In this document: positions 20,646-35,509 of the stretch, piece after piece | How the letters are laid out: the number at the start of each line of letters is the position of its first letter | Position numbering within the stretch: position 1 is the first letter of the stretch | Assembly (NCBI GenBank): GCA_021154885.1 | Contig: JAJKHS010000066.1 | Location: 1 to 64,000, forward strand | DNA: 64,000 nt | Reading direction: 5' to 3' | From: Thermoanaerobaculum sp. | GTDB taxonomy: Bacteria > Acidobacteriota > Thermoanaerobaculia > Multivoradales > UBA5704 | Notes under the pieces: model-generated | Databases searched by the model: none | What the model was told of the DNA's origin: nothing | What the model saw: the letters and a program-made list of their open reading frames with translations, nothing else | Made by a program: the position numbers and the translations under genes

Positions 20646-21725
20646 TCAACGCTGTCCGGCCGCGCGCTCCAGCTCGGCGGCGAGCACGGCGAGCGCCGGG
20701 CCGGGGGCGAAGCGCTCGAGGACGATCTCGCGGGCGCGCCGGCCGCACGCCTCGCGCAGGCGGGCATCGCCCAGCAGGGCCTGGAGCCGGTCGGCGGCGG
20801 ACCGGGTGGAGCCCGGACGGTAGAGGCCGCCGCTCACGCCGTCCGCCACGAAGTCGGTGAACGGCCCCGAGTCCGGCACCAGCACGGCGCAGCGGCGGGC
20901 CATGGCCTCGACGACCGTCATGCCGAAGGATTCGCCGCGCGAGGTGGTCACGGCGACACCGCCCGAGTCGCGCACGGCATCGAAGAAGGCGGGGATGCGC
21001 TCGTGCGGCAGCCCCCGGAACCAGCGCAGACGGTGCAGGATGCCCGCCTCCCGGGCGCGCGCCAAGAGCTCCGCCGCTCGCTCCGGCTCCACCGGCCGGC
21101 CCGCGATCCACGCCTCCGCCACGACGCCCCGCTCCGCCAGGGTGCCCGCGATCGCCACGAAACCCTGCCAGTTCTTGTGCTCGTCCAGCCGGCCGACCCA
21201 GGCGAGTACGGGCCGTCGCGGCGGCGCCGGGAACGGCACGGGCGCGGCCACGAGCTCCCGGCGCACGGGGTTGGGGACGACCCGCACGTCGACGCCCTCG
21301 CCCACTCGCTCCGCGACCAGCCGGCGGTGGTGCGGCGAGGGGGTGAAGACGGCCGCCGGCCGCAATACGGGCAGGCGCCGCAGGTACTCGATGTTGTCGA
21401 GGTAGGCCGAGTGGCACTCGACGACCAGCGGCGGCAGAGGGGGCAGCGGCGGCAGGCCCGGCGCGGGCTCCTCGTAGCCGGCGAGGACCTCGGCCGTATC
21501 GATCGTGGAGACGAGGTCGAAGCCGCGGGCGAAGGCGAGGCAGGCTGCGGCGTCTCCCACGCGCACGCGGTCCTCCAGACCGGAGAAGATGGAGCGCCCC
21601 CCGAAATCGTGGAAGAACCAGGCGTGCGCCTCAATGCCGTGCGCCGCGAGCCCGTCCAGGCGGGCGCGCAGGACCGCCTCCACCCCGCCCAGGGTCAGGT
21701 AGCTGTAGACGAACAGGGCTCTCAT
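20646..21725 (-). CDS. Glycosyltransferase family 4
   Basis: This is a 359-residue GT-B transferase. It starts MRALFVYSYLTLGGVEAVLR, a normal GT4 opening with the glycine-rich acceptor loop. Further on are VRVVPNPVRREL, VLAWVGRLDEHKNWQGFV and the donor site SRGESFGMTVVEAMARRCAV. Its start overlaps the end of the pyruvyltransferase fusion by four bases (ATGA at 21722-21725), so it is the last gene of a three-gene minus-strand operon with wecB and the fusion. The linkage is unknown. Confidence 0.87.
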   Translation of the reverse strand: MRALFVYSYLTLGGVEAVLRARLDGLAAHGIEAHAWFFHDFGGRSIFSGLEDRVRVGDAAACLAFARGFDLVSTIDTAEVLAGYEEPAPGLPPLPPLPPLVVECHSAYLDNIEYLRRLPVLRPAAVFTPSPHHRRLVAERVGEGVDVRVVPNPVRRELVAAPVPFPAPPRRPVLAWVGRLDEHKNWQGFVAIAGTLAERGVVAEAWIAGRPVEPERAAELLARAREAGILHRLRWFRGLPHERIPAFFDAVRDSGGVAVTTSRGESFGMTVVEAMARRCAVLVPDSGPFTDFVADGVSGGLYRPGSTRSAADRLQALLGDARLREACGRRAREIVLERFAPGPALAVLAAELERAAGQR

Positions 21726-24688
21726 GGCGCGGCACCGAGCAGGGCCCGCTTCTCCGCCACCCGCTGGTCCCCTCGTGCGAGCGCCGCCAGCAGCTCGTCG
21801 AGCCGGTGCGCCCAGGTGCAGGCGGCGGCGAAGGCGCGCCGCCCGGCGGCCGCCGCCGGCGGCAGGGCGGCCGCCCGCTCGAGCGCCGCGAGGAAGCCCC
21901 CGACGTCCTCGGCGCGCTGCACGAAGCCCTCGCCGCCCGGTGGCGGATAGACGCCGGTGCACACCACCGGCAGGCCCATGGCCAGGTACTCGTAGGTCTT
22001 GATGGGATCGGCGCCGGCCGCCAGGCGGTCCGGCCGGAAGGGGACGATCGCCACGTCCCAGTGGGCGGCGAAGGCCGCGAGATCGCTCTGCGGCTGCTTA
22101 CCGAGCAGCTCGACGTTGGCGGGCACGGCGACGCCCTCGGGGCTGCCGCCGTAGCCGATGAGGTAGAACCGCCAGGAGGGGCGCCGCCGCGCCGCCGCGG
22201 CCACCAGCTCCCAGTCGAACCAGGCGCCCGCCAGGTAGCCGAAGTAGCCGACGGTGACCTCGCCCCGGGGGAGCGGGCGCGGCTCGCGCACCGCCTCGAT
22301 ACCCGCCCGCACGCCGTTGCGCACGATCTGCACCTCCTCCCCTCCCAACTTGCGCAGCCTGGCGGCCAGCGTGTCGTTGATGGCGAAGACGGCGTCGGCG
22401 GCGTTGATCAGGTGCCCCTCGAATCCCTCGTCGTACCACACCGCCTGCCCGACCCGCTGGAACTCCTCCCAGTCGTCGAGCGCGTCGTAGACGGTGGTCC
22501 AGCCCGCCGCGTTGGCGGCGGCGAGGAGCTCGAAGAAGCCGGGATGGGGGAACTCGATCATCAGGATCCGGGAGAGCCCGGCGAAGGCGCCCGTCAGCGC
22601 CTCGGGATGGTCGGTCACGACGTCGATCGGGATCTGCAGGATGCCGTCCGTCACCCGGTCCTGAGGGCGCCACTCGCTCTTCCACCAGCGCCAGTAGACG
22701 AAGACCACGGGGATGCCGCGCCGCGACAGCTCGAGCGCGAGCTGCGTCGGGCGCTGGCCTTCGCTCTCGACGAGCTGGGTGGCCGAGACGATCGCCACCA
22801 CCGTGGGCCCGCCGGCCGCACGGACGCGGTCCTCGAAACGGAGGAGATCGCCCCGGGGATCGGGCGCGGGCTCGCCGGGGGCTGCGGGCGCGGGCCCCGG
22901 AGCGGCAAGGGCGGCAGGAGCGGCGGGAGCGTGGGGAAGACGGCGGCCGAGCGCGCCGCGGACCTGGCGATAGATCCGGCGCCGGCGCGTGCCCTCCGGC
23001 AACAGGCGCCGCATCGCCGCCCAGAACCGGGAGACCAGGCGGTAGGCGATCGTGGCCTCGAGCTCGCTCAGCCGCCGGTCGAGGTCGTTGCGTTCCGCCA
23101 GCACCAGATCGCGCTGCTCGCGAATCTGCCGGTAGGTGACGAGGGCGTCCTCCTGCTGCCTGAGGACGAGCTCCTGCTGCTGCAGCGCCAGCTCCTGCTG
23201 CCGGAGGGCCAGGAGGACCACCTCCTGCTCCTGCGTCCTCTCTTCCAACGCCTGGCGCTGCTCCCCGGCGATCCGCCGCTGCTCCTCGGCGATCCGCCGC
23301 CTCTCCTCGGCGATCCGCCGCTGCTCCTCGGTCTCCTGCTGCTGGGACTGGAGCCAGGTCCGGTATTGCTCCATCTCCTGCCATTGGCGCTCGATGACGG
23401 CTCCCCGCTCGTGGATCACGGCGTTGCGGGCCGCGACGTCGTGCAGGCGCCCCTCCAGGGCGTGACCCGCGAATCGCCGCAGCACCTCCAGGTCCGTTGC
23501 GGCGAGCGGCGGCGGGAGGGGCGCGTCGCCGGCGAGGAGCTCGCCCGCCAGCTCGACGTTCCTCTCGGCGGCCTGCTTGAGCTCGCGGCTGGCGGCCAGG
23601 AAGTCGCGGCGCAACGCCTCCCGCGCTCCCCAGGCGCGCTCCAGGAGAGGGCCGAGGCCTCCAAGGTCGGAGAGATCGAGGCAGAGCTCCTCGTGGCCGG
23701 CGAGGCGCGCCAGTTGCCTCACCTTCGGGTCGTAGGCGAGCGCCACCGCCGACGTGCCGCTCAGCAGGGCGAAGAGGACGGAGTGCAGCCGCAGCCCGAT
23801 CAGCAGGTCGCAGCTCCCCACCACCGCGGCGATCTCCTCCGGCGAGCCGCCGCTGCCGAGGCTGCGCACGTCCGCCGCCGGCAGGCCGCCGGCCGCCAGC
23901 TTCACCCGCAGCCGCGCGAGCGCGGGATCGTCGTAGCCGGCGTGGAAGGGAACGAGCAGCACCTGCGCCCCGTGCGAGCGGGCGAAGGCCGCCACGGCCG
24001 CTGCCAGACCCGTCTCCCAGGTCTCCTGGGAAACGCCGAAATCCCAAGGCCGGGGAGTGAGGCCGACGACCGGCCTCCCCGCGGCGATCCCCGCCGCCGC
24101 CATCAGGCTCCGCGCCCGCTCCTCGCCGGCCGGCTCCAAGGCGAACGCCGGGTCGGCCGTGACCTCCACCCGCTCCCCCGCCACTCCGATCTGCTCCAGC
24201 AGAGCTTTCGATTCGGCGTCCCGCACGCTGGCGCGGGAGGCCAGCGCGAAGGCCAGCCGCACGGCCTCGCGCCCCTCGGGGGTGAACAGCGGGCCGACGC
24301 CGCAGGCATAGATCAACAGCGGCTTGGCGAACAGCCAGGCGAGCAGAGGGAAGCTCGCGTAGTGGGCGAGGTCCGGCGCCTCGTTGTCCAGCAGCCGGCC
24401 GGGATCGAAACCCCAGTAGTCGAAGAAGATCCCGCCGCCGCCGAGGATCAGCAGGTCCGTTTGCCGCAGGGCCTCCGCGAGGGGGGCCCAGTCTCCCCAG
24501 TACAGGGCCTCGACGCCGTGCTGGGCCCGGGTGGCGGCGACGTCTCCCGAGACCACCTGGAGGCGGGCATCGGGCCGGCGGGCGCGCAGCCCGCGCAGCA
24601 GGACGCTGAGGATGGCCTCGTCGCCGGTATTCCCCTGGCCATAGGAGCCGGCGATCAACACGCGCTGGGACGGCGGGGAGGTGGTCAA
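21722..24688 (-). CDS. Polysaccharide pyruvyltransferase-coiled coil-GT4 fusion
   Basis: This is a 988-residue protein with three parts. Residues 1-350 are a CsaB-like polysaccharide pyruvyltransferase: VLIAGSYGQGNTGDEAILSV, LLILGGGGIFFDYWG and LLIGLRLHSVLFALLSGTSA, which adds a ketal pyruvate from PEP to a sugar. Residues about 420-560 are a Glu/Gln/Arg-rich coiled coil with EEQRRIAEERRRIAEEQRR-type repeats. Residues about 640-975 are a GT4-type transferase with TVGYFGYLAGAWFDWELVAA and PIKTYEYLAMGLPVVCTGVY. The coiled coil may set the distance between the two active sites, as length-measuring coils do in O-antigen systems. It overlaps wecB by four bases. Confidence 0.85.
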   Translation of the reverse strand: MTTSPPSQRVLIAGSYGQGNTGDEAILSVLLRGLRARRPDARLQVVSGDVAATRAQHGVEALYWGDWAPLAEALRQTDLLILGGGGIFFDYWGFDPGRLLDNEAPDLAHYASFPLLAWLFAKPLLIYACGVGPLFTPEGREAVRLAFALASRASVRDAESKALLEQIGVAGERVEVTADPAFALEPAGEERARSLMAAAGIAAGRPVVGLTPRPWDFGVSQETWETGLAAAVAAFARSHGAQVLLVPFHAGYDDPALARLRVKLAAGGLPAADVRSLGSGGSPEEIAAVVGSCDLLIGLRLHSVLFALLSGTSAVALAYDPKVRQLARLAGHEELCLDLSDLGGLGPLLERAWGAREALRRDFLAASRELKQAAERNVELAGELLAGDAPLPPPLAATDLEVLRRFAGHALEGRLHDVAARNAVIHERGAVIERQWQEMEQYRTWLQSQQQETEEQRRIAEERRRIAEEQRRIAGEQRQALEERTQEQEVVLLALRQQELALQQQELVLRQQEDALVTYRQIREQRDLVLAERNDLDRRLSELEATIAYRLVSRFWAAMRRLLPEGTRRRRIYRQVRGALGRRLPHAPAAPAALAAPGPAPAAPGEPAPDPRGDLLRFEDRVRAAGGPTVVAIVSATQLVESEGQRPTQLALELSRRGIPVVFVYWRWWKSEWRPQDRVTDGILQIPIDVVTDHPEALTGAFAGLSRILMIEFPHPGFFELLAAANAAGWTTVYDALDDWEEFQRVGQAVWYDEGFEGHLINAADAVFAINDTLAARLRKLGGEEVQIVRNGVRAGIEAVREPRPLPRGEVTVGYFGYLAGAWFDWELVAAAARRRPSWRFYLIGYGGSPEGVAVPANVELLGKQPQSDLAAFAAHWDVAIVPFRPDRLAAGADPIKTYEYLAMGLPVVCTGVYPPPGGEGFVQRAEDVGGFLAALERAAALPPAAAAGRRAFAAACTWAHRLDELLAALARGDQRVAEKRALLGAAP

Positions 24689-25833
24689 GAGATCTCCGGC
24701 TGGAACGGCGACCAGGGCTCACCCGCCAGGATGGCGGCGATCCGGTCGGCCGCGTGCCCGTCGCCGTAGGGATTGATCGCGCGCGCCATCTCCAGGTAGG
24801 CGTCGGGGGAGAGGAGCAGCCTGGCCGCCTCGTCGAAGATTCGCTCCGGGTCCGTACCCACCAGCCGCGCCACCCCGGCCGCCACGCCCTCCGGGCGCTC
24901 GGTGGTCTCCCGCAGCACCAGCACCGGCTTGCCGAACGCCGGCGCCTCTTCCTGAATCCCGCCGCTGTCGGTCAGGGCGAAGCGGCACCGCGCAAGCATC
25001 GCCACCAGCTCGCGGTAGTCGAGGGGCTCGCGCAGTTCCAGGTTCGCCAGCCCCGACAGGAGCTCGTAGGCCGGACCGCAGACGTTGGGGTTGCGGTGCA
25101 CCGGATAGATCCAGGCGACCTCCGGGAAGCTCTCCGCCAGCCGGCGCAGGGCGGAGAAGATCGCCCGCAGCGGAGCGCCGAAGCTCTCGCGACGGTGCAC
25201 GGTGATCAGCACCTCGGGGCGCTCCGGGGCTCGCGGCGTGTCACAGGCCAGCGCTTCACAAGACAGAAATTGCAGCGCATCGATCACCGTGTTGCCGACG
25301 ACGTGGACCCGCTCCGGATCGCACCCCTCCGCCAGCAGCGCGCGGCCGGCGCACCCGGTCGGGGCGAAAAGGGCGTCGGCCAGCAGATCGATGACCCGCC
25401 GGTTCGCCTCCTCCGGGAACGGCATCCGCAGATTGCCGGTGCGCAGGCCGGCCTCCACGTGTCCCACCCGCACGCCGCGGTGGAAGGCGGCGAGGGCGGC
25501 GCTCATCGCCGTGGTCGTGTCCCCCTGCACCAGCAGCCAGTCGGGCCGCCGGGCTTGCAGGACCTCGTCGAGGGCGGAGAGGGCGCCGGCCGCGAGGCCG
25601 TTGAGCGTCTGGTCGTGCCGCATCAGGCGCAGGTCCAAGTCGGGCGCGAGCCCGAACAGCCCCTGGACCTGCTCCAGCATCTCCCGGTGCTGGCCGGTGG
25701 TGCAGACCGTCACCGCGAAGCGCTCGGGGCGCCGCCGCAACGATGCGATCACCGGCGCCATCTTGATGGCCTCGGGACGAGTTCCATAGACGGCGAGGAT
25801 CTCGAGCGGTAGGGAGTCTGCGGGTACGGTCAA
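24685..25833 (-). CDS. wecB: UDP-N-acetylglucosamine 2-epimerase (non-hydrolysing)
   Basis: The 382-residue protein interconverts UDP-GlcNAc and UDP-ManNAc. It has the family opening LAVYGTRPEAIKMAPV, VCTTGQHREML, the VGHVEAGLRTGNLRMPFPEE segment with active-site acidic residues, ITVHRRESFG, and FALTDSGGIQEEAPAFGKPV. It begins with TTG at 25833, supported by GGAG seven bases upstream; no nearer ATG fits. It leads the minus-strand operon with the pyruvyltransferase fusion and a GT4. Pyruvylated ManNAc is known in cell-wall polymers that bind SLH domains in Gram-positive bacteria, which makes this pairing notable in a window full of SLH proteins. Confidence 0.93.
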   Translation of the reverse strand: MTVPADSLPLEILAVYGTRPEAIKMAPVIASLRRRPERFAVTVCTTGQHREMLEQVQGLFGLAPDLDLRLMRHDQTLNGLAAGALSALDEVLQARRPDWLLVQGDTTTAMSAALAAFHRGVRVGHVEAGLRTGNLRMPFPEEANRRVIDLLADALFAPTGCAGRALLAEGCDPERVHVVGNTVIDALQFLSCEALACDTPRAPERPEVLITVHRRESFGAPLRAIFSALRRLAESFPEVAWIYPVHRNPNVCGPAYELLSGLANLELREPLDYRELVAMLARCRFALTDSGGIQEEAPAFGKPVLVLRETTERPEGVAAGVARLVGTDPERIFDEAARLLLSPDAYLEMARAINPYGDGHAADRIAAILAGEPWSPFQPEIS

Positions 25834-25900: not shown

Positions 25901-26019
25901 GGTCAGGAAGAATGAGCCCCGCCGGCGAGCGACGGGGCGGAGGAGAGGCGCAGGAACCTACGGCAGACCCGGGAGCGGGTCCCAAAGGCTGCACGGTGGA
26001 CGGCGGAGCCGCCCCTTTT

Positions 26020-26211
26020 TTACATGCCCCTGCCGTCGTTGTTGCCGTAGGGCCGGCCGGCGGCTGCGCCGGTTGGACCGCTGGCCTGCGCGTGCAGAGC
26101 ACCGGACCCGAGAGACGAAAGGATGGCGGGCGCCGCGAAGGCGAGGCCCGCACCGGCGATCGTCTTCTTGAGAAAATCTCTACGATCCGACAACGAGTTA
26201 TGGATTTCCAT
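26020..26211 (-). CDS. Tat-signal peptide precursor, candidate modified peptide
   Basis: This is a 63-residue protein that is almost entirely a twin-arginine signal: SDRRDFLKKTIAGAG, a hydrophobic stretch, and an AQA cleavage site near residue 43. The predicted mature part is only 20 residues, rich in Gly, Ala, Asn and Arg, ending RPYGNNDGRGM. The start is fixed by AAAGGAGGTG just upstream of ATG 26211. It is divergent from the PqqD-like gene, with starts 55 bases apart. PqqD-like proteins present precursor peptides to modifying enzymes, so this peptide is the obvious substrate candidate for the kinase and nucleotidyltransferase beside it. That role is inference; no homologue is known to me. 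Confidence 0.75.
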   Translation of the reverse strand: MEIHNSLSDRRDFLKKTIAGAGLAFAAPAILSSLGSGALHAQASGPTGAAAGRPYGNNDGRGM

Positions 26212-26229
26212 GACACCTCCTTTGCTGTC

Positions 26230-26259
26230 TTGACCCCTTGATGAGTGCAACCTTATAGT
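26230..26259 (+). promoter_or_regulatory. Strong promoter for a leaderless PqqD-like transcript
   Basis: TTGACC (26230-26235) and TATAGT (26254-26259) are separated by 18 bases, a near-consensus sigma-70 promoter. The expected transcription start is at about 26266, one base before the GTG start codon at 26267, so the message would be leaderless; indeed no ribosome binding site is present. The -10 box read on the other strand gives TATAAG, which could serve the divergent Tat-peptide gene. Confidence 0.65.
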
Positions 26260-26266
26260 CCGCTGC

Positions 26267-26545
26267 GTGAGCCTGGATCTCGGCACCACGTTCTCCCTCG
26301 CCCCGGGAGTCCAGCTCGAGCCCCTAGGAGACGGGAGCGCCGTGCTGTACTCCAGAGACCTGGACGAGAGCCTGAGCCTCAATCATACCGCCGCACTGCT
26401 CTGTAGCTTCGCCGACGGTCAACATACAATTGCCATGGTAGTGCAAGAGATGAGCCACGTCTTCACCGCCAGCTCCATCGACGAGGACGCGCTCGTCGCC
26501 TGCCTGCGCGAGCTCGCGGACCGGCGCTTCCTGCGATGGCGCTAG
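26267..26545 (+). CDS. PqqD-like peptide-binding protein (RRE fold)
   Basis: This is a 92-residue protein of the PqqD superfamily, the small winged-helix fold that binds leader peptides in many RiPP pathways. It opens with strands (FSLAPGVQLEPLGDGSAVLY), then SRDLDESLSLNHTAALLCSF and DGQHTIAMVVQEM, and ends ACLRELADRRFLRWR, matching the PqqD layout of N-terminal strands and three helices. It begins with GTG at the predicted transcription start. The last ten bases overlap the kinase gene, so the two are translationally coupled. Similar PqqD-like/HprK-related pairs are known in polysaccharide-rich loci, but their substrate is undefined. Confidence 0.85.
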   Translation: MSLDLGTTFSLAPGVQLEPLGDGSAVLYSRDLDESLSLNHTAALLCSFADGQHTIAMVVQEMSHVFTASSIDEDALVACLRELADRRFLRWR

Positions 26546-27405
26546 CAGACCCGGCCTGGATCGTCCTCGGGACCCCCTTTCGCTGTCTCGGCGTCCCGGC
26601 GGACGCGCGACGCGACCTCGCGGCCCTTCTCCAGGGGTTTCCGACTTTGCAGCCGCCACCTGCCGAAGCCGTCGCTCTCCGGGTGGAGGCGAATGGCGGC
26701 GGGGCCCTCCTCCTCGTCGACGGCCAAGGCAGCCGCTGGGACATGGCGGAGAGCGAGGCGCCCCTCAGCTCCCACCTCGAGTACCGCCTGATCGACGACG
26801 CGATCCGGCGCGCCGCCGGCCGCTGGGTCCTCCACGCCGGCGCGGTGGCGGCACCGGGCGGCACCTGCCTGATCGTGGGCGAGTCTGGCGCGGGCAAGAC
26901 CAGCCTTGCCCTCTGGCTCTGGACGAGCGGCCTGCGGCTGATCACCGACGATCTCTGCCCCATCCTCTGCGGCTCTCTCACCCCGGAGGTCTTCCCGCGC
27001 GCCCTCCATATGGACGCGGACTACTCACCCCGGCTGCTGGCGCGCCTCCCGCCGCGACCTCCCTCCTACCCGGCGGCCTACTATCCATTTCCCGAGCGGG
27101 ACGCGGCCCCCCTCGCTCCTCTACCTCCAATCACCACGCTGCTCGTCCTCGAACGCGGGCCTGACGCGGAGGGGGCTCTGGAGCTGCTGAGCCAGTCCGA
27201 AGCGACGCACCAACTGGTCAAGGCGGTGATCAAGTCCCCCGCGTTCGACTTTGGGGAGGCGCTCGCCGACATGCTCCGCCTGGCGCGGCGCTGCCGCTGC
27301 TACCGCCTCCGGTCCTCGACGCCGGAAGGGGCGGGGGAACGTGCCCTGGCAGCGCTGACGACGACGCCTGCCTCAGCAGGCCAGGTCGCCAGCCCAGCCG
27401 CGTAG
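26536..27405 (+). CDS. HPr kinase-related serine kinase-like protein
   Basis: This is a 289-residue protein with the HPr-kinase P-loop core. The Walker A motif is GESGAGKT at residues 115-122, preceded by WVLHAGAV (residues 97-104) and followed by LRLITDDLCPI with the DD pair at 138-139, as in HprK-like kinases. The N-terminal domain of true HprK and a PTS HPr gene are both missing. Related kinases phosphorylate the C-terminal Ser of certain lasso peptides (paeninodin type). It starts inside the end of the PqqD-like gene and its last 33 bases overlap the convergent nucleotidyltransferase gene. Substrate here is unproven; the Tat peptide is the best guess, although its mature part has only one Ser and one Thr, both near its N-terminus. 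Confidence 0.83.
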   Translation: MALADPAWIVLGTPFRCLGVPADARRDLAALLQGFPTLQPPPAEAVALRVEANGGGALLLVDGQGSRWDMAESEAPLSSHLEYRLIDDAIRRAAGRWVLHAGAVAAPGGTCLIVGESGAGKTSLALWLWTSGLRLITDDLCPILCGSLTPEVFPRALHMDADYSPRLLARLPPRPPSYPAAYYPFPERDAAPLAPLPPITTLLVLERGPDAEGALELLSQSEATHQLVKAVIKSPAFDFGEALADMLRLARRCRCYRLRSSTPEGAGERALAALTTTPASAGQVASPAA

Positions 27406-28428
27406 CTTGCGGAAGAGTCCCCGCGTCGACACCTCTCGCAGCACGGCGGGAAACGGTCGTTGCGAGAACAGCCAGAGTTCCACGGCCTTCGCCGCCCGCC
27501 AGGCCGGGAGGCCGAGCCAGGGTTCGCCGAGCAGCACGGCGGTGAGCACGCGGCGCAGCAGCAACCGCTCCAACGGACTGGCCGGCGACGGGGTGGCGAG
27601 CTCCGCCGCTCCCGGAGCCCCGTAGAGCCCGAGCAGCCAGAGCGGGCTCCAGACGGCGCGCCGCGGCCAGGCCCGAGCCTCCGCCGCGAAGCGCTCCCCG
27701 ACCCCGCCGGAGACGGGGAGCTGGGCTCCCAGGTCGGCCAGCCAGCGCAGTCCCCCCAGGAAGGCGTGCCGGCTCAGGTGGAGGCAGCCGAAGAGGAGCT
27801 GGTGCTCGGGAGAGGGGACGCGCACGGAGCTGCCGTCGAGGTCCAGCTCGCGGCTCTCCCGCCAGAGGCGGTCGACGAAGCCGTCCGGAGACGAGGCGTC
27901 CACGTCCCAGTGCAGCTCGACGACGGCCCCCCGCCGCTCATAGGCGAAATGGAAATGGTTTCTCAGCAGACCGGCGCGGCACTGGAAGGATTCGTCGAGG
28001 CGAAAACCCTTCGCCGTCAGCAGCGCTTCCGCCGTCTCCAGGTCGCGGCGGCGCAGCAGCACGTCGACATCGCACTGGAAGCGTCCCGCGAGCCCCGGCT
28101 GCGCCGCCCGCAGCGCGGAGCCCTTGAGGAGCAGGAGGTCGATGCCACGGACGCGGAGGTGGCCGAGGGCCTCGGCCAGCTCCGCGTCCCGCCGGAGATT
28201 GGCCACCGCGATCTCCGCGACCTGCTGCCGCAGGCCGGTTAACCAGCGGGCCGCCCCGGCCCCCAGGCGCTGCTGGTGGGGTCCGAGGCGGCTCAGGATC
28301 TGCGACTCGACGTTGAGCCGGGTCGTCAGATCGGCCAGCGGCTCGAGCCGCTCGTCCGGCAACGCCGCCGGGTCGCAACGGTCGAAGCAGAGGTCGATCA
28401 GCAGCCGCCACTCGGGTCGAATGATCAA
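27373..28428 (-). CDS. Nucleotidyltransferase family protein (NTP_transf_5-like)
   Basis: This 351-residue protein belongs to the uncharacterised nucleotidyltransferase group with a Pol-beta-like core. Key parts are LLLLKGSALRAA (KGSAL at residues 102-106), the metal-binding DVD at 120-122 in QCDVDVLLRRRDL, and VVELHWDVD near 169-177. A helical C-terminal half follows with PSPEHQLLFGCLHLSRHAF. Such proteins occur beside PqqD-like and HprK-like genes, including in some lasso-peptide clusters. It converges on the kinase gene with a 33-base overlap. It probably adds a nucleotide to a protein, peptide or sugar; nothing in the sequence fixes the acceptor. Confidence 0.85.
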   Translation of the reverse strand: MIIRPEWRLLIDLCFDRCDPAALPDERLEPLADLTTRLNVESQILSRLGPHQQRLGAGAARWLTGLRQQVAEIAVANLRRDAELAEALGHLRVRGIDLLLLKGSALRAAQPGLAGRFQCDVDVLLRRRDLETAEALLTAKGFRLDESFQCRAGLLRNHFHFAYERRGAVVELHWDVDASSPDGFVDRLWRESRELDLDGSSVRVPSPEHQLLFGCLHLSRHAFLGGLRWLADLGAQLPVSGGVGERFAAEARAWPRRAVWSPLWLLGLYGAPGAAELATPSPASPLERLLLRRVLTAVLLGEPWLGLPAWRAAKAVELWLFSQRPFPAVLREVSTRGLFRKLRGWAGDLAC

Positions 28429-28441
28429 CCTCCGGATCGGC

Positions 28442-30277
28442 TCAGGGCAGCGTCAGGCTGAACACCCGCTGCAGGAAGACCGACATCTCGGCCCGGGACA
28501 CAGGGCTTCCCGGACAGTAGTTGCCGCCGCCGCAGCCGTTGGTGACGCCCTCGGCGGCCAACTGCTCGATCCAGTCGACCGCCCAGTATCCCGGTGGCAC
28601 GTCGCTGAACCGGGTGCCGGTTCCCTGCGGTGGAACGTAGGTGCTGCCGTGCTTGGCGCGCAGCAGGAAGACCGCCATCTCGTCGCGGAGCAGCGAGTTG
28701 TTGGGGCAGAAGTTGCCGTTGCCACAGCCCTTGGTAATGCCCTCCGACGCGAGCTTCTCGATGAACGCCCCGGCCCAGAAGTCGGCCGGCACGTCGTTGA
28801 ACATCGTGCCCGTCGCCGGCGGCGGCTGATAGCTGCTGCCGTGGATGCCGCGCAGCAGGAAGATCGAGATCTGGGCGCGCGAGACGGGATCGTTGGGGCA
28901 GAAGTCGCCCGTGCCGCAGCCGCGGGTGATCCCCGACGTGGCGATGGATTGGATGAAGTTCCAGGCCCAGAAGGAGAGGGGCACGTCGAGGAAGGTGTGG
29001 TAGGAGAACTCGGCGCAGAGGCGATCCGTCGCTCCCAGCGTCGCGCCGCGCGACGGATGGACGCCGAGCTGGCCGAACATCGTGGCCTGCTGGTCGTTAT
29101 GGTGGCCGAAGCCCAGGCCGTGGCCCACGTAATGGGTCATCATCTCCTTGAAATCGGTCTCGCCGAGGCACTGAGCGCCCTTGTTGATGACGATCGACTC
29201 TCCGTTCAGCCGGTGCCACATCCCGTCGTCGAACGGTTCGGCGGTCTTGTTGTAGAAATAGCCAAACGTCGCGACCTGTCCGCAGCACACCGAGCTCCAC
29301 CCCGCGGGGATCGTCCCCGTGCACTGCTGGAGAGGCGCGAGCTGACTGCACGGATCGTTGAAGGTCACCTCCCCCTGGACGTCGGCGATTCCGCCGCTGC
29401 AGCTCGCGGTGCGGGCCTTGGAGCCCGCATAATTGAAGTTGATGGTCGAGGAGTTGTTGGACGTCCATGCGCTGGTGGCCTGCTGCACGGCGCTGACGCC
29501 GCCGTCGGAGATGCCCACCTGTCCCGGAGTGGTGTGCCAGAGGCTTACCGAGGCCCCGGTTTCGAAGCCGAAGAAGCGCAGAGGGGAGCCCTCGTTGGAG
29601 ATGAGGAACCGGCAGCTCGCAGGCGCCGAGGCGAGGGCGGAGCCGTCTCCCGCCCCTGCCGCCGCCGTCGTCGACTGCAGGCTGTCGCCCGCCACCGCCT
29701 GCTGCTGCGCCGCCGTGGCCACGACCGCTTCAGCGTGCCAGGGCGCTCCGGATGCGGCCGCGGCGAGGTGCGGCAGCAGGTCCGCCTCGCGGTAGACGGC
29801 GATGCCTTCGACGCCCTCGCGCGAGATCACGTCCAGCTCCTTCGCCTCCGGAACCGGGCGCATCAGCCCCGTCCCCGGGTCTTCGCGCAGGATGCCGTAG
29901 GACATCATCTGGAGCCGCCAGTTGCCGCTGGGAGCGGGGTCGAGGAAGAGGAGGTAACGCCCCCCCTTCTCGAAGCGGGGAGTGCCCGGCACGGCGAAGC
30001 CGACCTGCCCGACCTCGCCGCCCGGAGTCTCGACCGCGATGCGGGTGCCGGCCTGCTGTCCCGAGACGTGCCGCAGCACCTGGAAGGTCGTGAGCGTGTA
30101 GGGGATCTTGCCACGAAGCTCGCTCTGCGAGCTCCCCGCCTCGGCCAGGACCACCGTGCGGCTGATGCGGGCCAGCTCGCCGAGATTGGCCGGGGGAGCG
30201 ATGGTCGAGGCAAGGATGGGGCTCACTGCGATGCACAGGAGGAAGACTGCAAGTATGAGTCCGAGGGCTCGTCGCAT
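28442..30277 (-). CDS. Secreted metzincin-like protein with three SLH modules, degenerate active site
   Basis: The product is 611 residues. A signal peptide (MRRALGLILAVFLLCIAVSP) is followed by an N-terminal domain starting PPANLGELARISRTVVLAEA. A matrixin-like region carries HYVGHGLGFGHH near residue 385, where HExxHxxGxxH is expected; the catalytic Glu is replaced by Tyr, so proteolysis is unlikely. The last 185 residues hold three SLH modules, each with a GCGxGxFCPN cysteine pair and an RAQ/RAEM-x-FL segment. ATG 30277 has AAGGAG upstream. It is head-to-head with an intact paralogue at 30518. It is probably a surface-anchored protein, with a binding or structural role now. Confidence 0.83.
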   Translation of the reverse strand: MRRALGLILAVFLLCIAVSPILASTIAPPANLGELARISRTVVLAEAGSSQSELRGKIPYTLTTFQVLRHVSGQQAGTRIAVETPGGEVGQVGFAVPGTPRFEKGGRYLLFLDPAPSGNWRLQMMSYGILREDPGTGLMRPVPEAKELDVISREGVEGIAVYREADLLPHLAAAASGAPWHAEAVVATAAQQQAVAGDSLQSTTAAAGAGDGSALASAPASCRFLISNEGSPLRFFGFETGASVSLWHTTPGQVGISDGGVSAVQQATSAWTSNNSSTINFNYAGSKARTASCSGGIADVQGEVTFNDPCSQLAPLQQCTGTIPAGWSSVCCGQVATFGYFYNKTAEPFDDGMWHRLNGESIVINKGAQCLGETDFKEMMTHYVGHGLGFGHHNDQQATMFGQLGVHPSRGATLGATDRLCAEFSYHTFLDVPLSFWAWNFIQSIATSGITRGCGTGDFCPNDPVSRAQISIFLLRGIHGSSYQPPPATGTMFNDVPADFWAGAFIEKLASEGITKGCGNGNFCPNNSLLRDEMAVFLLRAKHGSTYVPPQGTGTRFSDVPPGYWAVDWIEQLAAEGVTNGCGGGNYCPGSPVSRAEMSVFLQRVFSLTLP

Positions 30278-30517
30278 GATGTACCACACTCCTTCGATGT
30301 AAAAACTTTCCTAGGACCGGACCACGAACTGCCGCTGCTGCTTAGGGCTTCCCGACGTCCGCTCGCCCTGATCGAACGGGATCAAGCGTGGAAACGTCCT
30401 TGAGCAAGACCCGTGCCCGAATCGCGCGAGTCTGGCACGAGGTACGCAAGAGATCCGGTCGCGGAGCCGCGAGCTCTCTTGGCTTACTTGGAGCGCTACT
30501 CACCCTGGAGATCAACA
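30278..30517. promoter_or_regulatory. Divergent intergenic region between two SLH paralogues
   Basis: This 240-base gap separates the starts of two head-to-head paralogous genes and must hold both promoters. It is less GC-rich near 30295-30320 (AAAAACTTTCCTAGG). I could not pick a convincing -35/-10 pair on either strand. Confidence 0.3.
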
Positions 30518-32302
30518 ATGCTCAAGCGCTTAATCCTGATCGCCTCTCTCCTCCTGGTCTCCCTTCGTCCCTTGGCCGCGACCTCCGTGCGCCCCCCTGC
30601 CGATCTTGGTCAGCTCGTGCGGATCAGCGAGGCCGTCGTGTTCGCTCAGGCAATGGAGTCCCGGGTCGAGCCGGGTGACACGATTCCTTTCACGGTCACC
30701 CGCTTTCAGCAGTTGGAGCAGATTGCGGGACGCCTCACGGGCTTCGTCTTCGAGGTGCGGGAGCCCGGCGGCAGCCTGGGCCGGATCGGGGCCGCGGTGG
30801 CGGGAGCGCCCCGATTCGCACCGGGACACAACTATCTCCTCTTCCTCGACCGGGCTCCCGGTGGAAGGTGGCGCTCCAAGATGATGGCCTATGGATTGCT
30901 CGAGGAGGAGGCGGGCGGCGGCCGGCTGCGCCCCCTGGCGGAGGCTCCCGATCTCGAGGTCCTGGCGCACAAGAGCTTCGAGCCGGTCGGCGTCTACGGC
31001 AAGCGGGCCCTGCTCGACCATCTCAAAGAGGTGGGCCGCGGCGCGCGCTGGGATCGCCGGCGGGCGGCCGCCCAGCCTCTCGCCGCGGACAAGGCTCCGC
31101 TGGTCGCCAAGGACACCGGTGCCGGCGGGCCTCCCGACTGCGTCTACCTGGACGATGGGACCGGCAACCACGTTCCCCTCCGCTGGTTCGGCTACGAGGA
31201 CGGCAGCACGACGGCGACGGTGCTGCCCACGACGCCGGGGCAGGTCGGGATCGCGGACGGCGGCGTCGCCGCCGTCCAGGAGGGGACCGCCGCCTGGCGC
31301 AACGCTCCCGACTCCGTGTTGCAGCTTCAGTCCGGCAGCTCTCGGCCGAGCAACGTCACCTGCTCCGGCAATTTCGACTTCGACAGGGGCGCAGTCATCT
31401 TCAACGACCCCTGCAACGACCTCGCGGACCTGTCGAGCGACTGCGTCGGCACCCTGGCGTTCGGCGGCCCGATCTACGACAACACTTCAACCCGCATGTA
31501 CGATGGCCAGCCCTGGCACCCGATCCTGTCTCCCTTCGTGGTGATCAACAACGGCACCCAGTGCGTCGGGGAGGTCGACTTCAAGGAGGTGCTGACCCAC
31601 GAGCTCGGCCACACCCAGGGCTTCGGCCACCACACCCCGGCCAACCCCGCCGACGCCACGATGTCCGCCTTCCTCAAGCACGACGGCCGCGGCGCCTCGC
31701 TCGGCCCCACCGACAAGATCTGCGCCTCCTTCGCCTACCACACCTTCCTCGACGTGCCCTACTCCCACATGTTCTGGCGCTACGTCGAGGCGGTCCAGAA
31801 CGCCGGCATCGCCCGCGGGTGCAGCACCGCGACCTACTGCCCGGACGACGCCGTCAGTCGGGCGCAGATGGCCGTCTTCCTCGTCCGGGGCTCCCATGGC
31901 AGCAGCTTCTCTCCTCCCCCTGCCAGCGGCACGAAGTTCGCCGACGTCCCGAGCGATTTCTGGGCCGCCTCCTTTGTCGAGCAGCTCGCCGCGGACGGCA
32001 TCACCCGCGGGTGCGGCACCAACCTCTTCTGCCCGAACTCGACGGTGACCCGCGCCCAGATGGCCGTCTTCCTCGTCCGCGCCCGGCACGGCAGCGGCTT
32101 CGTACCGCCCCCCGCCTCCGGCACCATCTTCGCGGACGTGCCGGCCGACTACTGGGCGGCACCTTTCGTCGAGCAGCTCTACGCCGACGGGGTCACCGGC
32201 GGCTGCGCCTCCAATCCGCGCCGCTACTGTCCCGACGACGACGCCACGCGCGGCGAGATGGCCACCTTCCTGGCCAGGACCTACAACCTGCCGCTGCCCT
32301 GA
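30518..32302 (+). CDS. Secreted metzincin-type metalloprotease with three SLH modules
   Basis: This is a 594-residue paralogue of the gene at 28442, in opposite orientation. It has a signal peptide (MLKRLILIASLLLVSLRPLA) and the same N-terminal domain (PPADLGQLVRISEAVVFAQA). It also has an intact zinc motif HELGHTQGFGHH (His361, Glu362, His365, His371), with ATMSAF downstream as a possible Met-turn. Three C-terminal SLH modules follow from about residue 405, with cysteine pairs such as CGTNLFCPN. The start at ATG 30518 has GGAG eight bases upstream. The product is likely exported and held at the cell surface, where it would cut extracellular proteins. Substrate is unknown. Confidence 0.85.
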   Translation: MLKRLILIASLLLVSLRPLAATSVRPPADLGQLVRISEAVVFAQAMESRVEPGDTIPFTVTRFQQLEQIAGRLTGFVFEVREPGGSLGRIGAAVAGAPRFAPGHNYLLFLDRAPGGRWRSKMMAYGLLEEEAGGGRLRPLAEAPDLEVLAHKSFEPVGVYGKRALLDHLKEVGRGARWDRRRAAAQPLAADKAPLVAKDTGAGGPPDCVYLDDGTGNHVPLRWFGYEDGSTTATVLPTTPGQVGIADGGVAAVQEGTAAWRNAPDSVLQLQSGSSRPSNVTCSGNFDFDRGAVIFNDPCNDLADLSSDCVGTLAFGGPIYDNTSTRMYDGQPWHPILSPFVVINNGTQCVGEVDFKEVLTHELGHTQGFGHHTPANPADATMSAFLKHDGRGASLGPTDKICASFAYHTFLDVPYSHMFWRYVEAVQNAGIARGCSTATYCPDDAVSRAQMAVFLVRGSHGSSFSPPPASGTKFADVPSDFWAASFVEQLAADGITRGCGTNLFCPNSTVTRAQMAVFLVRARHGSGFVPPPASGTIFADVPADYWAAPFVEQLYADGVTGGCASNPRRYCPDDDATRGEMATFLARTYNLPLP

Positions 32303-32420
32303 AGGGGGAGAGCATGCTGCCCGCCCTCCTCCCCCTTCCCCGTCCGGATCGACAGGACTATCATGTGGCCGTGAGCAACCTTCTATTTGCCAAATCAACG
32401 CAGCACAGAGGAGGTTCACC

Positions 32421-34178
32421 GTGCATCGATCTCCGCGCTCTCGTCTTTCCGCTCTCTGGCCGCTCCTGATCCCCGTCCTCCTGCTCTCTGGCCGGGGAGC
32501 GGGCGCGGCCCCGCCCTCTGGCGGCTTCGTGCAACTGGTCCCCGTCGTCTCCGGCCTCACCGATCCCCTGGGGGTGACCCACGCCGGCGACGGGTCGGGC
32601 CGGCTGTTCATCGTGCAGCAGACCGGGCAGATCCGCATCTGGGACGGCACGCAGCTCCTCGCCACGTCCTTCCTCGACGTCTCCTCGGTGTCGTCGCCGT
32701 GCGGCAGCCCGCCGAACTGCGGCGAGCGCGGCCTGCTGGGGCTCGCTTTCCATCCCAACTACGCGAGCAACGGCTTTTTCTACGTCGACTACACCCGTGG
32801 CAACGGCGACATCGTCATCGCCCGTTACCACGTATCGGCGAACCCGAACGTCGCCGATCCGAATTCGGGGCTGATCCTGCTGACCATTCCGCACTCCAGC
32901 CAGCCCAACCACAACGGCGGGCAGCTCGCGTTCGGGTCGGACGGCTACCTCTACATCGGAGTGGGCGACGGCGGGGGCGGCGGCGATCCCTTTGAGAGCG
33001 GTCAGAACACGAACACCCTGCTGGGCAAGGTCCTGCGCATCGACGTCAACGGCGACAGCTTCCCCGCGGACCCGAACCGCAACTACGCCATCCCGCCGAG
33101 CAACCCCTTCGCCAGCACCCCCTCCAGCGCGCCCGAGGTCTGGGCCTACGGCCTCCGCAACCCCTGGCGCTTCAGCTTCGACCGTTCGACGCACGACCTC
33201 TACATCGCCGACGTCGGGCAGGGGAACTGGGAGGAGATCGACTTCCAGCCGGCCGCGAGCGCCGGCGGCCAGAATTACGGCTGGGATTGCCGGGAAGGGG
33301 CCCATCCCTTCGAGACGGACGCCGACTGCACAGGCCCGGCTTTCATTGACCCCGTCCTGGAGTACGACCACTCGGGCGGCAAATGCGCGGTGATCGGCGG
33401 CTACGTCTATCGCGGCCAGCCGGCGAGCAGCGTGCTCACCGGCAACTATCTCTACAGCGACCTGTGCACTGGCCAGATCTGGCTGTCCACCCACGGGGCG
33501 GGCTCCTGGACGAGCCAGCAGATCCTCAGCATCTCCCCACTCGTCACCACCTTCGGCGAGAGCGAGAAAGGCCGGCTCTACATCGCCAGCCAGGGCGGCA
33601 CTCTGCAGTGGATCGCGCCATACACCTTCCAGGACGTGGCGCCCGACTTCTGGGCCTGGCAGTTCGTCGAAGGGCTGGCGGCGAGCGGCATCACCGGCGG
33701 CTGTGGCGGCAACGACTTCTGTCCCAACTCGTCCCTGAACCGCGCCGAGGCGGCCGTCTTCCTCGTCCGCGCCGTCCACGGCTCAGCGTTCGTCCCCCCC
33801 GCCGCCAGCGGCACGGTGTTCACGGACGTGCCCGCCTCCTACTGGGCCGCCTCCTACATCGAGCAGGTCGCGGCCGACGGCGTCGCGCGCGGCTGCGGCG
33901 CCAACCGGTATTGCCCCGAGGCGCTCCTGACCCGCGCCGAGGCCGCGGTCCTGCTCCTGCGCGGCAAGCATGGGCAGAGCTACGCCCCCCCGGCCGGGAC
34001 GGGGACCGTTTTCCATGACGTCCCCGCCGACTACTGGGCCGTCTCCTGGATCGAGCAACTGTCGGCGGAAGGGATCAGCGGCGGCTGCGGCGGCGGCAAT
34101 TACTGTCCGGACCAGGCGATGACCCGCGCCGAGGCCGCGGTCCTCCTGACCCGCACCTTCAGCCTGACGACGCCCTGA
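32421..34178 (+). CDS. PQQ-type sugar dehydrogenase (glucose/sorbosone family) with three SLH modules
   Basis: This is a 585-residue secreted protein. After a signal peptide comes a six-bladed propeller of the soluble glucose/sorbosone dehydrogenase (Yli-like) family, residues about 35-395: GLTDPLGVTHAGDGSGRLFI, CGERGLLGLAFHPNYASNGF, HNGGQLAFGSDGYLYIGVGD, and VWAYGLRNPWRFSFDR with DLYIADVGQGNWEEID. Three SLH modules with cysteine pairs occupy about 400-585. The GTG start follows GAGGAGG. Members oxidise sugars with bound PQQ, but many have no tested activity. The SLH tail suggests display on the surface next to the other SLH proteins. Confidence 0.88.
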   Translation: MHRSPRSRLSALWPLLIPVLLLSGRGAGAAPPSGGFVQLVPVVSGLTDPLGVTHAGDGSGRLFIVQQTGQIRIWDGTQLLATSFLDVSSVSSPCGSPPNCGERGLLGLAFHPNYASNGFFYVDYTRGNGDIVIARYHVSANPNVADPNSGLILLTIPHSSQPNHNGGQLAFGSDGYLYIGVGDGGGGGDPFESGQNTNTLLGKVLRIDVNGDSFPADPNRNYAIPPSNPFASTPSSAPEVWAYGLRNPWRFSFDRSTHDLYIADVGQGNWEEIDFQPAASAGGQNYGWDCREGAHPFETDADCTGPAFIDPVLEYDHSGGKCAVIGGYVYRGQPASSVLTGNYLYSDLCTGQIWLSTHGAGSWTSQQILSISPLVTTFGESEKGRLYIASQGGTLQWIAPYTFQDVAPDFWAWQFVEGLAASGITGGCGGNDFCPNSSLNRAEAAVFLVRAVHGSAFVPPAASGTVFTDVPASYWAASYIEQVAADGVARGCGANRYCPEALLTRAEAAVLLLRGKHGQSYAPPAGTGTVFHDVPADYWAVSWIEQLSAEGISGGCGGGNYCPDQAMTRAEAAVLLTRTFSLTTP

Positions 34179-34190
34179 GCCGGATTCTGC

Positions 34191-34216
34191 AGGGGCGGCC
34201 AGAGAGGGCCGCCCCT
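34191..34216 (+). terminator. Hairpin after the sugar dehydrogenase gene
   Basis: AGGGGCGGCC pairs with GGCCGCCCCT over ten bases around a six-base loop, 12 bases after the stop codon at 34178. There is no long U-run afterwards (TTACAGG), so it may slow or stabilise transcripts instead of ending them alone. It lies between convergent genes and could act on both strands. Confidence 0.5.
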
Positions 34217-34246
34217 TACAGGTTACTGCTGCTGTGACGCCAAGTC

Positions 34247-35509
34247 TCAGGGGCCGGTCTGCTGGACCGGCAGCGAGAACGTGCGGGTCATGAAGACAGC
34301 CATCTGCCCGCGGCTCACCGCATCGCCAGGGCAGTAGTTACCGTTACCGCAACCGCCGGTGATGCCTTCAGAGAAGAGCTGCTCGATCCAGGCAGCCCCG
34401 AAACCGTTGGCCGGAACGTCGGCGAAGACCGTGCCCGTGGCTGCCGGCGGCTGGTAGTTGCGGCCGTGCTTGGCACGCAGCAGGAAGATCGCCATCTGCG
34501 CCCGCGTCACCGGGTCGGTGGGACAGAAGCTCGGGGGCGAGCCACCGCAACCGCCGCTGATCCCGTCCGCTGCGAGCTGCTCGATGAAGTTGCCGGCCCA
34601 GTAGGAAGGCGGCACGTCGGCGAACACCCCTGTCGCCGCGGGCGGGTTGAAGGCCGGGCCGTGCATGGCGCGGACGAGGAAGACCGCCATCTGATCGCGG
34701 GGCACGGAGCTGTTCGGGCAGAAGAGGCCGCCACCGCAACCGCCGGTGATCTCAGCCGCGTAGAGCCCCTGAATGTAAGACCAGAAGGGGAAATCGGTCG
34801 GCACGTCCGGGAAGATGGAGAGCAGGCCGATATAGCCCGAGCGCTGGGAGGCGAAATCGTCCAGCCTGAGGGTCCCCGACGTCCCGGCGTCGATGCCGTT
34901 GACCGCACCCATACGGGCGTAGTTGACCACCTCGGTGTCGTTGTTGATGCCGGTGAGACCGGTCTGGGCGACGCCGTCGACCCACAGGTCGAGCCGGCCG
35001 TTGTTGGCGCCCGGAGCGGCGGACTTCGCCCAGTTGAGCTCGATCGCCCGCCAGCCCGGGGCCAGAGTCACCGGCGTCGGGATCTCGAGCTCGGCACCGC
35101 TGTTCTGCCGCACGAAGGCGCTCAGCCGGAGCGTCCCGGACACCTGGCGCACCACCACGCGGAGCACGGCGTTGCCCGTGGTCGTGGGCGGCGCCGGATC
35201 GGCGCCGTCATAGGCGTCGAACAGGTCGAGCTCGTCGCCGCCGGCCATCGCCAGGTTGCGCAGGTTGACATAGAAGCGCACCCGGTAGGTGGCCTCGGCG
35301 GATGGGTGGCTGCTCTGCACGAAGGTGGGGCTCCGGTTGGGATTGGCGACGTCGACCTCGAGGCCTTGGGTGCCGCTGTAGCGGGCCGAGCCGCCGTTGG
35401 CGGGCACGCCGGGGCGGACGGTCAGCGTGCCCGCGAAGAGCCCGGAAGAAGCAGCCAGGCTCAGGCCCAGCGCCAGGAGGATCGAACGAGGCATACGCGC
35501 ATTCTGCAT
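34247..35509 (-). CDS. Secreted protein with unknown beta domain and three SLH modules
   Basis: The product is 420 residues with a signal peptide ending near LAASSGLFAG. Residues about 28-228 form a region rich in beta-prone sequence, including YRVRFYVNLRNLAMAGGDEL and LAPGWRAIELNWAKSAAPGA. This recalls jelly-roll or laminin-like carbohydrate-binding folds, but I cannot name a family. Residues about 235-415 are three SLH modules with CGGGLFCPN, CGGSPPSFCPT and CGNGNYCPG cysteine pairs. ATG 35509 has GAGGAG upstream. It starts 14 bases after the reprolysin-like gene on the same strand, so the two probably form an operon. Confidence 0.78.
   Translation of the reverse strand: MQNARMPRSILLALGLSLAASSGLFAGTLTVRPGVPANGGSARYSGTQGLEVDVANPNRSPTFVQSSHPSAEATYRVRFYVNLRNLAMAGGDELDLFDAYDGADPAPPTTTGNAVLRVVVRQVSGTLRLSAFVRQNSGAELEIPTPVTLAPGWRAIELNWAKSAAPGANNGRLDLWVDGVAQTGLTGINNDTEVVNYARMGAVNGIDAGTSGTLRLDDFASQRSGYIGLLSIFPDVPTDFPFWSYIQGLYAAEITGGCGGGLFCPNSSVPRDQMAVFLVRAMHGPAFNPPAATGVFADVPPSYWAGNFIEQLAADGISGGCGGSPPSFCPTDPVTRAQMAIFLLRAKHGRNYQPPAATGTVFADVPANGFGAAWIEQLFSEGITGGCGNGNYCPGDAVSRGQMAVFMTRTFSLPVQQTGP

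Follow-up and report, generated by a model that had tools for sequence, protein, structure and literature searches.

What does a 63-codon gene, encoding a twin-arginine translocation (Tat) signal with about 22 residues behind it, do beside genes of the kind that modify peptides? The question is raised by a 64,000-nucleotide stretch of a Thermoanaerobaculum sp. genome (the whole stretch is called the window below), where this gene lies divergent from two overlapping genes, one for a PqqD-like protein and one for a kinase resembling the HPr kinase HprK, and where an NTP_transf_5 nucleotidyltransferase gene converges on the kinase gene. We consider it likely that the locus is a counterpart in function to the linear polyphosphorylated peptide (LPP) systems, with export through Tat: a small phosphopeptide pathway in which the Tat signal would also be the leader bound by a recognition element (RRE) of the sort used for ribosomally synthesized and post-translationally modified peptides (RiPPs). 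The association of the genes, its conservation, the signal, a variant of the motif within it and, at other loci, the fusions are established from sequence, as described in the following sections.

A selected gene for a short Tat peptide

Judged by its sequence, the translation (MEIHNSLSDRRDFLKKTIAGAGLAFAAPAILSSLGSGALHAQASGPTGAAAGRPYGNNDGRGM) carries the features of a Tat substrate, namely a twin-arginine n-region, an h-region, an AxA-type site and a translocase in the genome (TatC, E 1e-66), while its score of 12.6 bits does not reach the cut-off of 16.7 of the general Tat model TIGR01409. Orthologues are found in two congeneric genomes, with the divergent orientation kept and with 74–76% identity to the window peptide. 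The tail is invariant across the three at S-G-P-x-G-A-A-A-G-x-P-Y-G-x-N-D-G...M, all three peptides terminating in Met, and Ser44, unchanged in all three and close to where cleavage is predicted, is the candidate phosphosite. Searching with a peptide profile gave no relatives outside the genus.

A short frame with a modest coding score might be a chance open reading frame (ORF) or a misread start, an explanation that is for practical purposes refuted: the frame is conserved in the two congeners, with changes biased toward synonymous sites (dN/dS about 0.25 by Nei-Gojobori, for signal and tail alike), a Shine-Dalgarno sequence precedes the start, and DNA conservation falls off at the stop codon. 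By these marks the 63-codon frame is a real, selected gene, as the original prediction had supposed when it described a twin-arginine signal with a short tail.

The PqqD-like, kinase and nucleotidyltransferase genes

The translational overlap of the PqqD-like and HprK-like genes, also predicted, amounts to 10 nt, both genes being divergent from the peptide gene. The PqqD-like protein scores under the Pfam cut-off (23.4 bits); its AlphaFold model has the order b-b-b-a-a-a (predicted local distance difference test, pLDDT, 73), and a Foldseek search with this model returned no significant match, the lasso RRE TbiB1 standing at rank 6 (E 1.9). In the kinase, the Walker A sequence GESGAGKT, the upstream His (H100) and the DD pair (D138/D139) are intact and invariant. 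Its score against TIGR04352 is 29 bits, for a curated cut-off of 200, its best sequence matches in the PDB are HPr kinases (E ~0.01), and its AlphaFold model is poor (pLDDT 35).

Peptide, PqqD-like and kinase genes are kept together in the window and in the two congeners. A single-sequence search of the genome contigs with the kinase gave no match; an alignment search recovered the two congeners alone, which are the only other genomes found with an orthologous kinase, and a phylum-wide search gave distant matches only, without short Tat partners. The nucleotidyltransferase is conserved within the genus, and its predicted convergence with the kinase gene holds in the window but not in one congener (G001), where it is not beside the kinase; in both congeners (G001 and G002) its orthologue instead adjoins, on a separate contig, the orthologue of a metalloprotease with S-layer homology (SLH) repeats. 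NTP_transf_5 is a looser partner than the other three genes.

In the conserved promoter that reads toward the PqqD-like and kinase genes, 7 nt separate the end of the -10 box from the GTG with which PqqD starts (window 26230–26267), which may make the mRNA of this genome leaderless; the congeners have their PqqD start further downstream of the promoter.

Recurrence in the class and in Pseudomonadota

The recurrence of short Tat peptides beside PqqD and HprK genes, with or without NTP_transf_5, in other genomes had been named beforehand as the test of the idea, and such recurrence was found. An HprK_rel_A search over 149 genomes of the class gave matches in 73, from which 80 loci were taken; the 200-bit cut-off of TIGR04352 was passed in none of the 149. 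All loci were then scanned in the same way for short Tat ORFs under strict criteria, the discovery loci being left out of the counts. Of the 37 loci that had PqqD but neither B2 peptidase nor C cyclase, 8 had such an ORF no more than 2 kb from the kinase, as against 1 of the 47 others (Fisher P = 0.005), and the rate near the kinase exceeded that far from it (P = 0.027), with two of the near-kinase matches (L089 and L140) looking spurious by eye. A looser Tat regular expression was discarded as too noisy (53 near vs. 27 far matches, P = 0.19 by locus class).

The arrangements vary. Operons of the order PqqD-TAT-kinase occur at L079, L085, L082 and L087, and in L082 and L087 an NTP_transf_5 gene converges on them; at L018 the order is PqqD-kinase-TAT, again with a convergent NTP_transf_5 gene and with a kinase 29% identical. 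In five further loci (L083, L084, L090, L097 and L105) PqqD and Tat signal are fused in a single ORF, with tails that range from 15 residues through cysteine-rich peptides to a complete protein of the VWA/YfbK type. Tat proteins of ~200 aa are encoded in three more PqqD-kinase-NTP_transf_5 loci (L088 7131–7760, L092 4048–4671 and L125 2966–3556). No Tat peptide from any locus had a Pfam or NCBIfam match above cut-off.

Some of these proteins deserve description in their own right. The 631-aa product of L105 6583–8475 joins a PqqD-like domain, a Tat-like signal and a complete vWF_A/YfbK_C protein, with kinase and NTP_transf_5 genes adjoining. At L090 6580–7080, L097 735–1229 and L083 6750–7262 the PqqD domain and Tat-like signal are followed by a Cys-rich tail whose C-x6-C-xn-CC-xn-C-xn-C spacing recalls inhibitor cystine knots, making these candidates for a Tat-exported bacterial knottin. 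The signals of the ~200-aa proteins resemble YxxPxxKSFFGVRxAWAQ, like a longer-cargo version of the short-peptide arrangement.

Outside the phylum, 11 of 15 sampled loci on Pseudomonadota plasmids have a Tat peptide or protein beside PqqD, HprK and NTP_transf_5 genes. Short Tat peptides were found in Parasedimentitalea, Sinorhizobium, Ensifer, Leisingera, Novosphingobium, Rhizobium tropici and Methylobacterium tardum, and two systems annotated as HPr-rel-A have a Tat protein (Sphingomonas L158, 161 residues; Vibrio L159, 270 residues). No Tat partner was found at the loci of Rhizobium CC1099, Methylosinus and Tistrella, and at the Sulfitobacter locus B2 and an Asn synthase mark a lasso cluster. 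The tails of three rhizobial Tat peptides beside PqqD-HprK genes (L163 6858–7169, L164 6872–7171 and L167 3867–4091) share GNNG[YW]GNGxD, a loose resemblance to the PYGNNDG of the window peptide.

This recurrence bears on the view that the peptide has nothing to do with the enzymes encoded beside it: it would be a small protein with an envelope or regulatory role, linked to them by a divergent promoter only, and the kinase and transferase would act on polysaccharide or lipid-carrier substrates of the adjacent glycan locus. Such a view would suit the placement of the peptide on the strand opposite PqqD and kinase, the many glycan genes of the locus and the commonness of HprK-like genes in the class. 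We nevertheless hold it to be quite improbable, given that the association returns in varied orders and orientations, in PqqD-TAT-kinase operons, in PqqD-Tat fusions and in Pseudomonadota. In a kinase tree, the majority of the Tat-associated kinases group together (support 87), in a part that holds no lasso kinase; the 34 entries of this clade comprise 18 with a short Tat peptide, five with a long Tat protein and 11 others.

A candidate recognition motif in the signal and an early Ser

Solved structures of lasso and LPP adapters show the RRE binding a leader motif, [Y/W]xxPx[L/V/I/F/A] (PMC13381572). For the PqqD of L082 the nearest solved structure by sequence is TfuB1; the same paper refers to the complex of TfuB1 with its leader (6jx3). 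We compared 16 non-redundant unfused candidates with 30 Tat signals of the same order picked by the general Tat model. The strict motif was present in six of the candidates (YAAPAI, YATPVI, YVAPVV, WVPPLI, YTAPVL and YTAPRL) and in none of the controls (P = 0.0009), a zero that stays when three controls possibly read in the wrong frame (L177, L192 and L199) are dropped. Relaxing the motif, with Phe allowed and Trp allowed at the end, raised the count to 8 of 16 (P = 5e–5) and brought in the window instance. The aromatic residue is missing in the PqqD fusions (0 of 4), as might be expected if tethering made tight binding needless. A further pattern defined post hoc, P-x-[IVL]-x-[ST]-[LIVMF], matched 15 of the 20 candidates and none of the 30 controls. 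Beyond the signal, 14 of 20 candidates and 4 of 19 controls have a Ser within four residues past the predicted AxA site (P = 0.003), the one in the window being Ser44.

That the shared motif sits in the signal rather than in the tail could be read in another way, which is the main rival to the leader model: PqqD and HprK may form a chaperone or export checkpoint for the Tat signal, with PqqD masking the signal and the kinase gating its release (perhaps by phosphorylating the h-region Ser/Thr of the post hoc pattern), and with no modified product. With cargo that varies from ~5-residue tails up to an entire VWA protein, the signal is the constant part, and fusion places PqqD immediately upstream of it, both of which suit a checkpoint. 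On the other hand, in the known cases where a discrete RRE has an HprK partner, the outcome is phosphorylation of the core (PMC13381572, PMC8498205), a checkpoint hardly accounts for the nucleotidyltransferase, and Ser is enriched early in the mature region. We consider a checkpoint unlikely.

A proposed pathway and what weighs against it

In the leader model, then, the Tat signal would double as a RiPP leader, bound by the PqqD-like RRE. We infer the steps (binding, phosphorylation, glycosylation and export) as follows. The discrete RRE would bind the aromatic-xxPxI motif observed in the h-region of the signal and so hold the peptide for the HprK-like kinase to phosphorylate at a Ser near the later cleavage site, here Ser44. 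Optionally, NTP_transf_5 might attach a sugar or a nucleotidyl group to the phosphate, the donor plausibly being supplied by the adjacent polysaccharide pathway. The Tat translocase would export the modified peptide and an ordinary signal peptidase would cut the leader, a route that would do without both a dedicated B2 or SpI peptidase and an ABC exporter. The product, of ~22 residues, may have a role in the envelope or be attached to a surface glycan. The earlier suggestion of a modification cassette without macrocyclization, with Tat export and near a polysaccharide locus, is partly supported, by the recurrence and by the PqqD-Tat fusions, its modification step being a proposal.

Several points weigh against this model. 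The PqqD-like protein and the kinase both fall below curated family cut-offs, the nucleotidyltransferase is unlinked from the kinase in one congener, and the peptide ends in Met, unlike the C-terminal Ser of paeninodin kinase substrates. The window motif has Phe rather than Tyr or Trp, and the strict motif is missing in the fused and in most alphaproteobacterial cases; the motif and Ser comparisons used small sets, partly chosen by inspecting the same sequences, with guessed cleavage sites. About one-third of the kinases in the Tat-rich clade have no Tat partner in the flanking DNA examined, and the three kinases of the window and its congeners lie on a long branch outside that clade, with weak support, so that they may be an independent or a fast-evolving branch.

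A partnership that recurs in bacteria so distant suggests, from sequence, an undescribed class of modified Tat-exported peptides in which the export tag would be the docking handle, and the locus has a fair chance of representing a distinct class. The evidence is evenly balanced on a broader proposition, a RiPP-like class across Acidobacteriota and Pseudomonadota whose leader would be a Tat signal, with PqqD/RRE reading aromatic-xxP, HprK phosphorylating the start of the cargo and Tat exporting it. As part of that proposition the RRE would be separate or fused in cis, and the cargo anything from ~5-residue tails through cystine-knot-like peptides to a whole VWA protein. No description of Tat-exported peptides of such kind was found in the open literature, subscription journals and preprints being outside the search. 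The proposal, that one sequence is both export signal and modification leader, would offer candidate substrates for two kinds of protein, HprK-like kinases and PqqD-like adapters, that have a name in genome annotation but no place (the HPr-rel-A system) and would extend phosphopeptide RiPPs past Bacillota; if true, a single signal/leader would explain clusters that have no dedicated leader peptidase or exporter.

Features of the locus and its surroundings

Table 1. Positions of the locus features in the window, with the basis for each
Feature	Position	Strand	Basis or remark
CsaB-like pyruvyl transferase fused to glycosyltransferase	21722..24688	-	context
Non-hydrolysing UDP-GlcNAc 2-epimerase (WecB), downstream of peptide gene	24685..25833	-	context
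Tat peptide gene, candidate RiPP-like precursor, 63 aa	26020..26211 (including stop codon)	-	purifying selection; conserved in two congeners
Candidate mature peptide Q42-M63, QASGPTGAAAGRPYGNNDGRGM	26023..26088	-	predicted cleavage site
Tat signal region D9-A41, S-D-R10-R11-D-F-L-K-K ... A-L-H-A	26089..26187	-	sequence
FAAPAI (F25-I30), aromatic variant of [Y/W]xxPx[L/V/I/F/A] inside the h-region	26122..26139	-	sequence; FAVPTV in congeners
Strong Shine-Dalgarno AAGGAGGTG, directly 5' of peptide ATG	26214..26222	-	sequence, conserved in congeners
Sigma-70-like promoter TTGACC-N18-TATAGT, toward PqqD/kinase genes	26230..26259	+	sequence conserved in two congeners
PqqD-like discrete RRE (putative peptide adapter)	26267..26545	+	TIGR03859 E 2.9e-5; Pfam PqqD 18.8 bits
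HprK-like peptide kinase (candidate)	26536..27405	+	TIGR04352 HprK_rel_A E 5e-7
NTP_transf_5 nucleotidyltransferase	27373..28428	-	PF14907 E 8e-39; convergent with kinase, 33-nt overlap

The wecB gene adjoins the peptide gene in both congeners as well. The sequence at ~26002–26019, read on the plus strand, has a terminator-like short hairpin and T run that are not conserved, and an Rfam scan found no RNA. Positions 28442–35509 hold a series of secreted proteins with SLH-like C-terminal repeats, near the CsaB-like gene. SLH proteins and a CsaB-like pyruvyl transferase are the usual pair for anchoring SLH to a pyruvylated wall polymer.

A second, richer locus of the same genome (L038 3605–11632, contig C95) has two PqqD genes, two HprK-like genes, NTP_transf_5 genes, a SPASM radical SAM gene, a B2-like gene and a possible signal peptidase gene, without a cyclase gene; directly upstream of one PqqD gene, a 24-codon ORF (MKKTYRKPSLRRLGLLRQITRFSF) with a YxxPxL motif resembles a leader without a core. 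A related genome (G010) has at L017 8173–12068 (contig C61) a complete lasso cluster with an HprK-like kinase and a 57-codon candidate lasso precursor ending GTPYRNVE.

Comparison with known systems

Two likenesses are slight. The formate dehydrogenase region TAT target (TIGR02811) is likewise a very short Tat protein, which the L085 peptide matches weakly, but the partner genes differ and formate dehydrogenase genes were not seen. The SynChlorMet cassette (TIGR04248/TIGR04249) gives weak matches to the PqqD-related and HprK-related (ScmC) proteins, but its radical SAM enzymes are not at the window locus.

The paeninodin and pseudomycoidin lasso clusters, of which paeninodin had been offered as the precedent, share the PqqD-like B1, the HPr kinase homologue and the nucleotidyltransferase; the LPP and HPr-rel-A systems treated below are nearer. 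In the pseudomycoidin cluster, the nucleotidyltransferase PsmN adds hexoses to the phosphorylated peptide (PMC8498205). The window locus differs in having no B2 peptidase, cyclase or C-terminal Ser, and in Tat replacing ABC export. As predicted, B2 and the Asn-synthetase-like macrolactam cyclase C were absent among annotated window neighbours, the B2 transglutaminase-like (PF13471) matches of the genome being elsewhere (contigs C14 and C95). Phosphorylation at a C-terminal Ser, the paeninodin rule, was rejected for the window peptide on account of its Met. The locus is not a lasso system. It might descend from one, as a paeninodin-type cluster decayed after losing B2 and cyclase; HprK-containing lasso clusters do occur in related genomes (L017) and the adapter motif is common to both. 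This explanation, already disfavoured, is very improbable: the genes are all intact and under purifying selection, the hand-listed Tat cassettes have no B2 or cyclase within 4.5 kb of the kinase, and the leader Thr at -2 is missing along with the C-terminal Ser.

The NCBIfam HPr-rel-A system (TIGR04352 HprK_rel_A, TIGR04353 PqqD_rel_X) likewise combines a PqqD-family chaperone, an HprK-related kinase and a nucleotidyltransferase, and its annotated Sphingomonas and Vibrio examples also adjoin a Tat-signal protein. It differs in that the window kinase falls far short of the TIGR04352 cut-off, as given above, and that PqqD_rel_X is not among the matches of the window PqqD. We found no mention of the name HPr-rel-A in the open literature searched, and no family model fits these Tat substrates.

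LPPs, described in Bacillota by Popov et al. 2026, come from clusters of RRE, HprK and NTPase genes, in which LppK acts on a linear core, phosphorylating its Ser3 (PMC13381572). Shared with them are the discrete PqqD-like RRE, the HprK-like kinase and the NTP transferase without a macrolactam cyclase, a variable C-terminus, a leader with a motif akin to YxxP (with Phe in the window) and a setting in capsule or polysaccharide loci. The LPP leader motif YxxPxVLxHQxIxFETxxS is not matched by FAAPAILSSL of the window, the shared part being aromatic-xxPx[I/V/L] only. The published description confines LPPs to Bacillota, whereas the hosts here are Acidobacteriota and Pseudomonadota; and LPPs rely on LppS, a signal peptidase of archaeal type, and on an MsbA-like transporter, whereas the leader here is a Tat signal, with no SpI-type signal peptidase or MsbA-like transporter recognised around 20–32 kb of the window. 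By this comparison the locus is no member of the LPP family, though it probably works like one.

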